In this document: positions 728 to 24,251 of the stretch, one piece after another
Position numbering within the stretch: the first letter of the stretch is position 1
Layout: each line of letters opens with the position of its first letter
NCBI GenBank assembly: GCA_001630475.1
Contig: KV419405.1
Span: 66,900-130,899 of the forward strand
Direction: 5' to 3'
DNA from: Sistotremastrum niveocremeum HHB9708
Lineage: Eukaryota > Basidiomycota > Agaricomycetes > Sistotremastrales > Sistotremastraceae
DNA length: 64,000 bases
The notes under the pieces: model-generated
Told to the model about the DNA's origin: nothing
Seen by the model: the letters and a program-made list of their open reading frames with translations, nothing else
Databases searched by the model: none
Made by a program: the position numbers and the translations under genes

Positions 728-2275
728 TTACCTGGTACTCTTTCCATCATGATTCGATGTACCTGGGGGACCGTTCCCGTCAGAATTAGAGAATTTCAAA
801 TAATAAGCTTTCCGAACCTGTTGACGAATGCCCCTGACCGCAGCCTTTACCCCAGCGAGCTCTTCCGCGACTCGGACATTCTCTGTTGTCAGCGCAATAT
901 CGTGTCGTCGACCAGTATGTTCAACCGTCTTGGCGAGTGTGACAACGGAATCCCGAAGAGAAGTAAAAGTGTGCTCTAGAGTTCCATCAAGATCAAGTGG
1001 TGCGACACTGATCGAGGTCGGAGGGGCGGTATGATCTGGTGGAAGAAGGTGCGGATATTGGAAGGGTATACGATGGGGAGGGAATAGGGTGTGTTGCGTT
1101 TCTCCCTCGAATATTTCGGGGAAAGGATCGTGCTCATCGGATTGCGATGACGAATGAGGAAAGAAATCTGCCCCATTTAGGGGCATGGTCCCTGTCGGCG
1201 ATGATGTACTTGATGAAACGGCTGCGTTATGACTCGCGTTCGCAGGAAGTTTGAACCAGGGATGAAGAAGATACTTCATCGCATGAACATCATGTCTGGA
1301 CCGGTCGAAAACAAATGCAAGTTCTTCCAGCCGATCTTTCAGTCGCTGGTTTTCGGCTTCGAGAGCAGATATACGCTTTGAGTTCATAAGGAAGAATTCT
1401 TTTAATGGTTCGTAGGGACACCTTTCCAAGTGATCGGGGCGGTCAGCCTGACGTCCTGTCCATCGACAACCGTGCGGTTGATGCTCGCAGGAGACTTGCG
1501 CGTCTGGACAACCAGATGCGTGACTTGCATCGGGAAATTTGAGATCACAGGTGGTGCAGAATTGATCGTCACCACTTGATCTTTCGCTATCCTGAATCCC
1601 ACGAGATAAGTCATGGTTTCGACTCGAGAATTGGTAGATAACGCACCGAAGTCTCATGAGTGAGGTTCACGAGGCGATCATGGCGTGACGGATGAGAATG
1701 GCTCTTGAGATCCTTTCTCTTGATAAATTGATCGCATTTACGCTCCGGACATGGCAGTGGTTCGTAGAGGCACTCGTCCTTGAGATGATGCTCGAGCAGT
1801 TGCCGCTCGCACTGATGATCACACCCTAGGGAGCGATGGGTACAGTATACAGGGAGCTCCGACACCATCTAGAGTATTCCAGTGAGTTAATTAGATATAG
1901 AAGATATCCAGCACGACGCTTACATGACGAACGATGGGACTGGCAAGCGAAACGTCCTCCAGAGACAGCGGTGACCGATCGATTGGACATTGCGGCAGCA
2001 CCGCGATAGCAGAGCATATGCATTCCCAACAGAATGTATGCGAACACGATTTCGTAGTTGCAGGTACGTTGAACGGCGTTCTGTTGGCGTCAAGCACATT
2101 GAGACTTTGAATATCAGGGATAAGACGTTATCTAACCGACATATACAACACAGCTTCGTGTCAATCAGCAAAACTTGATTAATGACGTGTGTAAGATACG
2201 GCGTACAAGATTAGGATTTACAGCTTCAACATACGAATAAGACAACGAGAACGACGAGGACGATGAGGAAGTCAT
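728..2275 (-). CDS. RING finger and TRAF-type zinc finger protein, probable E3 ubiquitin ligase
   Basis: Four or five exons. The start ATG at 2275-2273 opens a serine run (MTSSSSSSFSLSYSY). A GT..AG intron then joins to LCCICR, and a 56-nt intron joins to TPFNVPATTKSC. This gives a RING of the form C-x2-C..C-x-H-x2-C-x2-C (CSHTFCWECI) ending in CPID, with the last metal ligand an Asp as in some TRAF-type RINGs. After an intron come TRAF-like Cys/His fingers (CTHRSLGCDHQC, then HQPHGCRWTG, then HLERCPYEP), followed by a helical stretch starting KEFFLMNSKRISALEAENQRL that looks like a coiled coil, and a proline/serine-rich tail. RING plus TRAF fingers without a MATH domain is common in fungi, and a ubiquitin ligase role follows from the family. 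The substrate is unknown. It lies 71 bp downstream of the TPP1-like gene on the same strand. Confidence 0.8.
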
Positions 2276-2346: not shown

Positions 2347-4984
2347 TCAGGAATAGTTAGCATGAGCTTTAGCTTCTCGTGTTTTGGTAAGAATGCCATC
2401 CAGATCTCTCCAATTCATTAATCGAATACCGGCCTCATCTGCATGAGCAGAAATATCCAGCCCATTTCCAGGGTGGAAGCGAGCAAACAGCCCAGCGTCG
2501 ATCACCGGTTTTGACTTTGCAGATCTAGCCGGCTCAGGAGGCACAACTGCATCATCTTTCTGCTCGGGACTGGGTATTGCCTTCATTTTGCCTTTTTCGT
2601 GAGCAGTGTATCGTCGATCCAGATCTGGGGGTTGAGGAATTTCAGGAGAACTGGCGCGTTCGACGTGTGCTTCGCTTCGCAGCTCCTCCGTTCGATTTGA
2701 TAGCTGTGCCTGCTGATCCCCATGAATCTCGTGTTTTTCCAAACTACCGTTCGAGGCGGAGCCCGGAGGTTCTTTCAAGGTTGACAGGGGAGCCTCCGTG
2801 TTCTGGCTCCGATCCCTATCTGCAGACGGTCTGGATATTTTCGTCCCGGAAGACGAAACAAGCGGAGGTGACGGATTGGTACGAAGATCCAATTTCCCAA
2901 GAGAAGAACCGCTGGTCCGAGAAGACTGCAATATATCCTTCTGAACAGGCTCAGATGTCTGCGGTCGCTGTACCAAGATATCATCCTTGGCGACGCTCTT
3001 CCTGGACTTCTGTAGGAACGCAGGGCTCCTCCATGAGGGGGGACTATGCTCCACGGGCCGTACAGGATCCACAATATCTGATTTCTTCCTTTTGGGAGGA
3101 GTTTCGTCTTCTGAGCTGGATGTGGCATGATCACGTTTTCTTTTCGCAGCATTGATAGGAGGAGAACGCGGTCGGATAACTTCAATCACTGCCTCATCTT
3201 GTTCTCTAGTTTCCGGAATAAGATCATAGGATCCATCCTCAATCCCTCGGTACGTCTCAGAGATTGCCTGCGCGAGACCAAGTGATGGCACTGGCTCTGC
3301 CGTCTGTGGCGGGTTCGGTGGCGAATTGGGGTGCGCCACATCAGTTTGTTTTGTGACGGAGAGAGTGGGAGATGTTCGATGTGATTTTTCATTCGCGCTC
3401 TCAGGTGTCTCTTTCGTCGCCTCTGAAGTCTTGTGAGTAGGTGACTTGGTGAATTGGTTTTCTTTGTTTGCCCTAGGTTCGGGTGATGGATGTGACGGCC
3501 CGCCGAAACCGGTGACTGACAGGCGACTCTGAGAGGCATCGTACGGAATAGACTGCGAGCCTGACAAAGATTGGCTCTGTGAACCCGAGACATCTGAGTC
3601 TGGAACGAGCACGTTGCCGCGCAGTGGCACACTCTCTTGAGTGATCTGCCCACGGAATGGGCTTAGAGAAGAGATGGGCAACGAGGAGGCAGGCAGTGAT
3701 GAAGTGTCGTGGAATAACGGGTTTGTTTGCACTTCATAAGTATCGGGAAGGGCTGTTGTCGGGATAGATTGTGAAGACATTGGTTTTTGTGACTGCGAGT
3801 TGTATTGTTTCAGAGGTGATGGTGCCGGAGACATACGCTCCGCGCGCCCTTTTGGAGACGGCGTCGGCTCCCATTCTACGTCCAGTATTCGCTCTGGAGA
3901 TTCTGGCGGAGCGTGACTACTGCCACCATTCTCTAGCTCTTCGGTTTTGACCGGTAACTCTATCTGTTCATGCTTCACGGCGGGTGAAGGCAGCTTTTCC
4001 TGTCCAAATACTAATGATCATAGCTTTTGGTCAGCTCTGACAACACAAACAGTGGGTACTCGCCTGGAATCTTATCTAGTAAGGCTTGATCCTTCTCGCT
4101 GGGCACCGCATTGCGCAAAGGATCACGGGCGAAGAACTGGACGTAGTTAAAACAGACAGTCCAGATTAGAGCGCTCAGTCTGACCTTCCATAGCTCAGCA
4201 CTCGGTTGCTTAAACCCAACTACATTCAGTTTTGTGTCGGATGGCGTCTTGAGGGGAGGGTTGTCGAATGGCGAAGTCTCTTGAGGAGCTGGTTCCTTCT
4301 TATCGAATTGTTGTTGGCGAATGTAATCCTTCTTCAATATATCTCTGACCGTCTTCGTAGTTAGATCAGAAGTGCTTTGGTGAGCTCGAACATGTCACAC
4401 ACCCTTGATCCTTGAGCAATCCACCTGTCCATCTCCTCATTCTCTCTTCGGCCGTCACCAAAGTCAAGTCTCCAAAAGGGGGTTCGCCCTTCGACCCAAT
4501 GAGTCCAACAGACTCGATCTCTAAAGCTAGCCGTGCCATGGATTCGATCTCATCGTTTACGCCAGTCGGAACGTGTGTTAGGAAAGGCCGGTATTGTTTG
4601 ATACTAAAATAGCCAGTTTTACATGCCGAGATACGTTCTCCATGATCTCTGCGCGAAGACTGAGTTTGCGAACGACTTGACTAAATATGAAACATGCTCA
4701 CTGTAAGTGTCTATCGACTGCTGCGCTAGAGAGCCGAGCAGGTATAAAATGAGTACCATCAGATACCTCTGTCCATATTTCGAAAGGATTAGGATTTCGC
4801 TCAGTTGGACCTGTGATGAACTGAAAAGGGTTGGTTTGGTTCGCGCGCCCTGAGTTAACAAGCTCACCTTGACGATTTGAACTAGTCGTTTCTGTTCAGA
4901 AAGGGGAGCTGGCTCTCCCCCGAATTCACGAGCGACGCCTAAGAGATAATCAAGCAACCACGGCTTTCGCAGGATCGTCCCCAT
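2347..4984 (-). CDS. Shelterin TPP1/Tpz1-like telomere protein (N-terminal OB fold)
   Basis: The start ATG at 4984 gives MGTILRKPWLLDYLLG, then an intron of about 47 nt (GTGAGC..TTTCAG) joins to an exon containing FEIWTEVSDGTHFIPARLSS. A later exon reads RLALEIESVGLIGSKG and leads into a long S/P-rich, charged linker of about 500 residues and a C-terminal block ending WRDLDGILTKTREAKAHANYS. The opening (PWL..LL), the VSDGTHxI strand and the later L-E-I-E-S-V-G-L-I-G strand are the marks of the TPP1/Tpz1/Est3 OB fold, which bridges Pot1 to the rest of shelterin and recruits telomerase. The joins between 4620 and 4740 are uncertain: two models use either a 31-nt or a 56-nt intron. The linker and tail are not recognisable. 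The family call is an inference from motifs. An unrelated OB-fold protein is the main alternative. Confidence 0.6.
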
Positions 4985-5260: not shown

Positions 5261-6067
<807 letters not shown>

Positions 6068-6218
6068 TGTTGAAGATTAAGGGTATGGTTGGGGTAAGGA
6101 ACGTCGATGGGTGGGGAGAGCCTGACTGGCAGAGAAACGGAAGGAAGACGAACGGGAGGAAAACGGTAACAATCGTCGGAGTCTCAATTCGCGTTGACCC
6201 ACTTTCTTGCTCGCCACC

Positions 6219-21219: not shown

Positions 21220-24200
21220 ATGTTCGACTCTGCTGAATCTTCGCTCGTATCGACTTCATCATGGGGCGACGAACGACAGCCACAACACGACGACTTTAAC
21301 AACCACTTTGCCCACGTCGAGTTCGACGCCCTGCACGCCGCCGCCGCCTCCGCCTCTGCTCACCACCAGCCATTTGACCAGCAGCAACCCCAGCCCGCAC
21401 CCCACTTTGACATCTTCTCCAACCCGACATCCAACCCCTTTGGCACGGCGCGTTACCGACCAACAGTCACCACATCTGGTCTCCCGACCCAGCAGTCCCA
21501 TTCCACCCCGCCGTTTGGCTTCCCGCCGCAGGACCTGTATCCAACGCAGTCTCCATTCGCAGACCCGCTCAATTCAGCACCATACGACTTCTTGGGCTCA
21601 ATGAATGCTTTCGCGTCAGCAGGCAACTCCGCATCAATGCCTTCGTCAGCGACAAGCTCGTCGCACCCCTCCCACAGCCACGACCTCGTCAGGTCACAGC
21701 CACGCCCCTCGTACCTCCCTTCCCCGTCCTCTGCGTCGCCGTCGTTCCCTGACTTCATGTTGGACGCCCACCGTGCTTCAGCCAATTACACGGCACCCCG
21801 CAACATCTTCTCGGACTTTTCCTCGCCATCGGCTCTCGGCCTAGGACTCGGCATCAACAACTCCGCCGACTTCCATACTCCGCAGCAATTCCCCGACTCC
21901 CTTGATATGCTCTCCGCCTTGAAAGCAGATCCAATTGCTTTCCAGGACCGGCATTTCTCCTCAGATGCCTCGCTCAGAAACCTGGGCGTCGTCGATGACA
22001 GACTCGGAAGCTTGCATTTGCACCAGAGTCGCTCCAGTCGTCCTGGCAGCGATCTCGAGTCTTTTGTCCGGTATGTCCGTTGCCTCCCGCTCGACGCGCT
22101 CAAACTCTGATCTCCTTTTTTTTTGGCTTCGATTTTTTCGAATAGCCCTTTCTTGGATCAGTACATAAAAGCGCCTAACAGACTCGCGCACGGCGAGCGC
22201 ACTTTGATCGTCATGTCGTCAAAGGTCGCTCAAAAGTCTTACGGCACCGAGAAGCGTTTCCTGTGTCCTCCGCCAACCGCGATCATGATTGGAAATTCAT
22301 GGTGGTCAGACTCTGTTCGACACGGCGAAGAGCCCAAGCAAGCCCCTCCCCGCGTCGTCATCTCTATTTCTGGAGAGCCTGCTCCTCAGGAAGGGCCCAT
22401 TGAATGGACTAGCGCGTCCGGCAAAACATTTGATGTCGCGGATCCCCCGACTGGAACCACTTTCCTCGGGAGATGCGTTGGTAAACAGCTGTTTATCAGT
22501 GACGTCGACGAGAAGAAGAAGAAGGTCGAAGCCCTCGTCAAAATCATGGCTCCTGTCGCGGACGACGAACCGGACAGAGTTATCGGCACGTTCCCTAGCA
22601 GGCCTATCAAGGTCATCTCCAAGCCTAGTAAAAAGAGGCAGAGTGCCAAAAATCTGGAGCGTAAGTCCCTTCTTTCGAATTTCGCCGCGCCCCTAGAGTT
22701 AACCATTCTCCCTTAGTGTGTATTAATCACGGCTCCACCATCTCCCTCTTCCACCGACTTCGCTCGCAAACTGTTTCGACCAAATACCTGTGTGTTTCCG
22801 GTTCGGGCGCGTCGTTCAAGGGTTCAGATGGACAACCCCTACTTGGTGTCGACCAGCGATCACGAGTCGCTACACCCTCCTTCATCGCTCGCACGGCTAG
22901 CTGGGGTTAGTACTTGTGTCGTAATCGGACCTTTACCATTCATCTAACTATGCTTGCAGACCCCTTCGTGATGTACATCGTTGACGTTAACAAACCAGCC
23001 AGCGGTATCGATGCTCCTCCCCCTCCCCCTCCACAACCCGATTACCCCTCCCCTCCTCCCAACGCCATCCCTTTCACCAGTAATGGGTCTCAAATACCCA
23101 TATACTACAACCAAACCGTCGTTCTTCAATGTCTCGTGTCTGGCGTCGTTTCACCGGTCCTAATCATCCGCAAGGTTGATCACGGGACAGTCGTTGTCGG
23201 CGGTGGCCTGCAGGAAGGCGCCAAGGGCGTGCCTGATCACTTCTGTGCACCTGGCGAGGTGTGCGGAGATCCAGTCTCACAACTTCATAAGATCGCGTTC
23301 GAAGTTTACGATGCCGCTAAAGCCGTTCCGCAGCCAGGCACTCCGGGGGCAACCGGCGCTTTCCTCAGTTGCATGGGAGAGAAAGTAAACACATACCGCC
23401 CGGTCGAAGGACGACAGTGGAACAGTCCACAAAATTCATCACGCGGTTCCAACTCGCCATCCATCCCATCATCACCCATGCCTTCGACGCCAAGCAGTCT
23501 AGGACCTTCTAGCGTCGGCCCCGACTACTTCTCGGCTGCTGGTTCGAGTACGGGAAGCGTCCCTCCATCCCCCACCTCCTTCGACTTCCCTTCAAGCGAT
23601 GGTGGTCGCGTCAAGAAGCGCAAGCGGGGTAGCATCAGCAACTCGCCCGGAATGACTAAAGCCTCTGCAGCATCGGCCAAAGGGCGGCGCCGCCAAAACT
23701 CAGCGAGTTCGGTGTCTTCCTCGAGAGCCGGTGGCTACTCAGGTGGTAGCGAACATTCTGCCTCATCAGGCGCACTATGGGCCGTCGACATTGGTGAAAC
23801 GAGCGTCTGGACTATCGTTGGCACCGATCAAGTTCGCTACAATTTCTACGTCCCTCCCGCTCTCTTCAACACTCCCACTCCTTCGCATGGCGTCTCTCCC
23901 GGTTCGTTCCCTGTCCCCGCCAAGCAAGTGACACCATTCCCCGCCGTCGTCAAATACCTGCCACCTGATCGTGCATCTGAAGCCCCGAAGTCGAACTGTG
24001 CATCATCTCGGGCAGTCATGGCGAAGCCTAATCCACACGCGAGCAAGATGCTAACGGTGTATGGAGAAAATTTCTCAAAGTCGGAGCCTGTTACGGTCTT
24101 CTTTGGAAGTACACCCTCGCCGTTCGTCGAGATCAGATGCACAGAGGTGTTGGGCTGCACTCCACCTGAAGAGCCCTTGCCAAAACGAGTGCCGATTGTC

Positions 24201-24251
24201 CTCGTCAGAGGAGACGGCGTCATATTCCCTTCATCTACGCTGTATCCTTAG
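21220..24251 (+). CDS. CSL (Su(H)/CBF1/LAG-1) family transcription factor
   Basis: ATG at 21220 (CCGCCATGTTC). Four exons: 21220-22070, 22146-22660, 22717-22905 and 22960-24251, about 948 residues. The first about 280 residues are disordered (H, Q, P, S rich). The Rel-like N domain follows (RPFLDQYIKAPNRLAHGE, SSKVAQKSYGTEKRFLCPPP, IMIGNSWW), then the beta-trefoil domain (GRCVGKQLFISDVDEKKK, HGSTISLFHRLRSQTVSTKY) with a proline-rich insertion near PPPPPPQPDYPSPPPN, LHKIAFEVYDA, WTIVGTDQVRYNFYVPPALF, and a C-terminal TIG part (TVYGENFSKSEPVTVFFG). CSL proteins bind GTG(G/A)GAA. Fungal members (Cbf11/Cbf12) act without Notch in adhesion, lipid and cell-cycle control. A serine-rich insert at about 23400-23750 splits the BTD. 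The TIG end stops at STLYP, slightly short of animal forms. Confidence 0.92.

Follow-up and report, generated by a model that had tools for sequence, protein, structure and literature searches.

A probable TPP1/Tpz1-type shelterin gene in the basidiomycete Sistotremastrum niveocremeum

The question raised by this locus is whether a multi-exon gene on the minus strand encodes the TPP1/Tpz1 subunit of the fungal shelterin. TPP1 is the shelterin member that helps to shield chromosome ends, guides telomerase and couples these two activities. The gene lies near one end of the window, by which we mean the whole stretch of 64,000 nucleotides that was analysed. The initial annotation had put it forward as a candidate of the TPP1/Tpz1/Est3 family, and this assignment is supported by a match to the Pfam family PF10341 (scoring under the curated cut-off), by an alignment with human TPP1, by hhalign comparison and, more weakly, by an alignment with Est3. 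Judging from its sequence, we consider it very probable that the gene encodes the TPP1/Tpz1 of this fungus.

The predicted gene extends from an ATG at 4984 to the end of a TGA at 2347 (minus strand) and encodes 792 amino acids in six exons, whose phases are consistent and which contain no internal stops. The five introns are of the fungal style (four GT-AG and one GC-AG), the whole splicing pattern being a prediction. The model comprises the following features.

4868-4984, minus strand: exon 1, with the start codon and the N-terminal PW motif (PWLLDYLL, residues 8-15); open from the ATG at 4984 to the GT donor at 4867.
4821-4867, minus strand: intron 1, 47 nt, GT-AG, placed by the phase-consistent model.
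4702-4820, minus strand: exon 2, with the VSDGTH block, the centre of the PF10341 match, which aligns with VSDGTH of human TPP1.
4649-4701, minus strand: intron 2, 53 nt, GT-AG (GTGAGC...GCGCAG), placed by the PF10341 score and by phase.
4403-4648, minus strand: exon 3, with GYFSIKQYRPFL and RLALEIESVGLIG, the presumed later OB strands and the helix after them (strand pattern judged by eye).
4345-4402, minus strand: intron 3, 58 nt, GT-AG, placed by the phase-consistent model.
4185-4344, minus strand: exon 4, the post-OB region, from the phase-consistent model.
4137-4184, minus strand: intron 4, 48 nt, GT-AG, placed by the phase-consistent model.
4064-4136, minus strand: exon 5, from the phase-consistent model; residues 209-238 (SAELWK...DKIP) are encoded here and by the last part of exon 4.
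4011-4063, minus strand: intron 5, 53 nt, GC-AG, donor CAG/GCGAGT; phase-consistent, the unspliced frame stopping inside the intron.
2347-4010, minus strand: exon 6, a 556-codon open frame with the long low-hydrophobicity linker and the C-terminal block; stop codon at 2349-2347.

The three peptides to which the initial annotation had drawn attention are all found in coding exons of this model (minus strand): PWLLDYLL near the start (4963-4940, exon 1), the second-exon peptide EVSDGTHFIPARLSS (4769-4725, residues 57-71) and the later peptide RLALEIESVGLIG (4533-4495, exon 3, residues 118-130). The join between 4620 and 4740, described there as ambiguous, is accounted for by the predicted 53-nt GT-AG intron at 4701-4649, which yields ...AAVDRHLQ-DHGERISACKTGYFSIKQYRP... 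at the junction. This join brings the PF10341 score of residues 1-155 to 23.8 bits, whereas the other acceptor gives only 17.5 bits and a stop after 105 amino acids, and was rejected. For intron 3 an alternative in-phase solution exists; it differs by a few residues, located after the OB region.

An open frame of 556 codons, such as that of exon 6, has a chance probability of approximately 3e-12 (from (61/64)^556), and its attachment to the gene rests on a single GC-AG intron. Introns of the GC-AG type form a rare class, and if intron 5 is retained, the OB frame ends 17 codons further on, so the locus could be divided into two genes, one for a short Est3-like OB protein that ends in intron 5, the other for a disordered protein encoded by the 556-codon frame. 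We regard this division as unlikely, as the donor of intron 5 is near consensus (CAG/GCGAGT, which we take to fit the usual pattern apart from position +2) and the phases fit. Moreover, in Tpz1 of S. pombe the motifs for Pot1 and Ccq1 are also separated by more than 200 residues, according to the published description (PMC9333443). The single six-exon gene is thus the preferred model, and the residue numbers given below refer to its product.

The spliced N-terminus of this product matches PF10341 (TPP1/ACD): residues 1-155 gave an E-value of 4.2e-5 and 23.8 bits against 24,736 Pfam families, which falls below the curated cut-off of 26.5 bits. The Pfam scan returned E-values of 4.6e-5 for residues 1-161 and 5.5e-4 for the whole protein. 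The match extends from column 41 to column 92 of the profile (52 columns) and over residues 31-88, across two splice joins. Exon 2 alone reached an E-value of only 0.11, exons 2 and 3 together 0.0032, and exons 1, 2 and 3 together 4.6e-5, while neither exon 1 nor exon 3 by itself matched PF10341 in the scan. Single exons therefore score far less, and the signal depends on splicing. The exactly reversed sequence, scanned as a control, gave no TPP1 match. Since the profile recognizes both Est3 (E 2.1e-49) and human TPP1 (E 1.2e-32), the family takes in both kinds of protein.

Pairwise comparisons were performed with residues 1-155 against the human TPP1 OB sequence and Est3 (both identical to PDB chains), using 2000 shuffles and 116 decoys derived from the window as controls. 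Seven of these decoys come from same-strand stretches that overlap the gene itself; the four best-scoring decoys are not among the seven. The local alignment with human TPP1 scored 81 (z 5.6), a value attained by none of the shuffles and none of the decoys (best decoy 59.5), and the global alignment gave z 4.8, with 2 of 2000 shuffles as good. The local alignment with Est3 scored 66.5 (z 5.4; 1/2000 shuffles and 0/116 decoys as good), with a thin margin over the decoys, the best of which reached 65.5; the global alignment was weak (z 2.8, 33/2000 shuffles as good). When residues 1-161 were compared by hhalign with a two-sequence TPP1/Est3 profile, the score was 28.3 (27.1 in a separate run) with a probability of only 20-29%, against 21.1 for the best of 200 shuffles and 18.2 for the best of the 116 decoys.

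The similarity is concentrated in the N-terminal part of the domain. Residues 1-45 aligned with the N part of human TPP1 better than all but 3 of 2000 shuffles, while against the N part of Est3 they did not exceed chance (297/2000 as good). PW occupies residues 8-9 and VSDGTH starts at residue 58, a gap of approximately 50 residues that is found in human TPP1 as well. Residues 89-161 were no better than shuffles against human TPP1 (1296/2000) or Est3 (779/2000). By these sequence comparisons, the similarity to the TPP1/Est3 family is significant over the first ~95 residues. A phmmer search of the OB region against PDB returned no TPP1 or Est3 chain at E-values up to 10, and an AlphaFold2 model of exon 3 by itself was uninformative (pLDDT 48.8). 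It is because of the family similarity that we infer an OB fold for this domain.

OB families are structurally related, and the later strands of the predicted domain have no specific TPP1/Est3 similarity, which would also suit a member of the RPA2/Stn1/Ten1 class of OB-fold proteins that resembles TPP1 through the common fold only. This we consider very unlikely, since Pfam scans at a maximum E-value of 10 (HMMER filters discard most matches above ~0.1) list PF10341 as the sole family for the protein, with no Stn1, Ten1, RPA or other OB family, and the PW-containing N-terminal part (residues 1-45) aligns with human TPP1 as well. That an unrelated fungal protein matches a few columns of the TPP1 profile by chance is barely credible: although the score is below the curated cut-off, only 52 columns are matched and one decoy nearly ties the gene against Est3, the Pfam, human TPP1 and hhalign results concur, and shuffles and decoys stay well below.

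We return to the TPP1/Tpz1 reading and to the remainder of the protein. By position, and by analogy with residues 185-212 of S. pombe Tpz1 (PMC9333443), the most likely candidate for the Pot1-interacting segment is residues 209-238; phmmer found no PDB match for the post-OB segment at E-values up to 10. In the linker, residues 241-725 are poor in hydrophobic residues (73% P, E, S, K, Q, G, R, D, T and N; 18% V, I, L, M, F, W, Y and C), and for the C-terminal block phmmer yielded no PDB match with an E-value below 1. Two further features were recognized in this part of the gene.

3940-3978, minus strand: two adjacent SUMO-consensus-like sites, VKHE (residue 250) and VKTE (residue 259), a sequence motif.
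2350-2550, minus strand: the C-terminal 67 amino acids, with a helix predicted at model residues 47-65 (AlphaFold2, single sequence, pLDDT 69.9).

Since 73 of 5000 whole-protein shuffles also carry two SUMO-consensus-like sites within 10 residues, these sites are a lead only. The C-terminal 67 residues resemble the TIN2-binding tail of human TPP1 at chance level (436/2000 shuffles as good), and equating their LMNW with LMAW of the human tail was rejected, as it did no better than shuffles.

In this reading, the predicted N-terminal OB-type domain would contact telomerase via a TEL-patch-like surface, while Pot1, sitting on the telomeric overhang, would be bound at its third OB fold by the short segment that follows this domain. 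The long disordered linker may carry regulatory sites, and the C-terminal helix might dock a bridge to the double-strand-binding proteins. A more specific version of the TPP1 reading, in which the 67 C-terminal residues form a docking module for an unrecognised bridge protein of this lineage and VKHE/VKTE act as a SUMO switch like Lys242 of Tpz1, seems to us doubtful.

The genome was also searched for other telomere components. The RNA-binding domain of TERT was found in two pieces (E 6.4e-20 and 6.8e-8; C17:593650-594161, minus strand). Searches for the Pot1 partner with PF16686 and PF02765 (families POT1PC and POT1) were empty in this genome, and no control genome matched either family; a human POT1 OB1 query found nothing either. 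Insensitive searches with the TINF2_N and TRF families also returned nothing from the genome, and five stretches of viral contigs that fitted a search pattern included no relatives. The PF10341 search of the genome missed the very gene described here, so the blanks for POT1, TRF and TINF2 are not evidence of absence. With a search that skips simple repeats, no runs of three TTAGGG units were found in the 111 contigs of the genome, whether the units were contiguous or spaced by as many as 5 bases. GGGATT was rejected as a non-canonical telomere repeat; the 15 matches listed for its runs occupy 10 contig-internal sites. Twenty of the 111 contig starts were taken, 3 of which read N, and none of the 17 readable ones carries a telomere tract. 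Contigs C7 and C18 start nearly identically (first 110 bases), perhaps with a subtelomeric or transposon repeat.

As regards the genomic neighbourhood, the TPP1-like gene has frames of an Arf-family GTPase (5477-6183, minus strand; Pfam) immediately upstream of it, and it is also flanked by a RING-finger frame (1891-2127, minus strand) with Pfam scores under the cut-offs. The latter is followed by cysteine/histidine-rich frames (1611-1868 and 728-1666, minus strand), and by eye the region 728-2127 resembles a TRAF-type RING protein. The best Est3 decoy mentioned above comes from within this region (737-1201). Elsewhere in the window, an ORF on the plus strand (22911-24251) contains BTD (E 2.2e-8) and TIG_SUH (E 6.9e-11) domains and is presumably a CSL-type (CBF1/Su(H)/LAG-1) transcription factor.

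The spliced model can seed searches for Pot1-TPP1 in related fungi, and with it one could ask whether the roles that Tpz1 and TPP1 have in Pot1 binding, SUMO regulation and bridging are ancestral. It was suggested in the initial annotation that most fungal TPP1 proteins have been missed by sequence searches. The divergence of TPP1 is fast enough to leave the present copy under the Pfam curated threshold. The suggestion is nevertheless too strong, since basidiomycete TPP1 orthologs (Cryptococcus/Kwoniella) have already been published (PMC11185503), and the known picture is therefore unchanged. The gene is probably best viewed as a believable further member of the known TPP1 family, not as an unprecedented one.

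Comparison with the characterized members of the family places the protein as follows. Like Est3 of S. cerevisiae, it belongs to PF10341 and contains a D..H.I...S...V....H..RI block which aligns with that protein (1/2000 shuffles as good, the best decoy nearly tying); unlike Est3, which has 181 amino acids with PF10341 at 18-175, it continues for ~630 residues past the OB region. With human TPP1/ACD it shares the Pfam family, the PW motif (LRPWIRELI in the human protein), the ~50-residue spacing and VSDGTH, which align at z 5.6, whereas the later OB strands are unalignable beyond chance and the C-terminus has no detectable similarity.

The likeness to Tpz1 of S. pombe is one of layout: both present, in order, an OB region, a post-OB segment, a linker and a C-terminal part. 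By eye our protein has no SWSSS motif. In Tpz1, the Pot1 motif (185-212) binds OB3 of Pot1, the Ccq1 motif spans 425-470 (PMC9333443), and SUMO on Lys242 aids in bringing Stn1-Ten1 to telomeres (PMC6686008). Lys242 follows the 185-212 motif, and the SUMO-consensus-like lysines of our protein likewise come after its post-OB segment (PMC6686008, PMC9333443, for the Tpz1 positions). Among basidiomycetes, a study on U. maydis describes both Pot1 and Tpp1 as binding at single-stranded telomere termini (PMC11670948).
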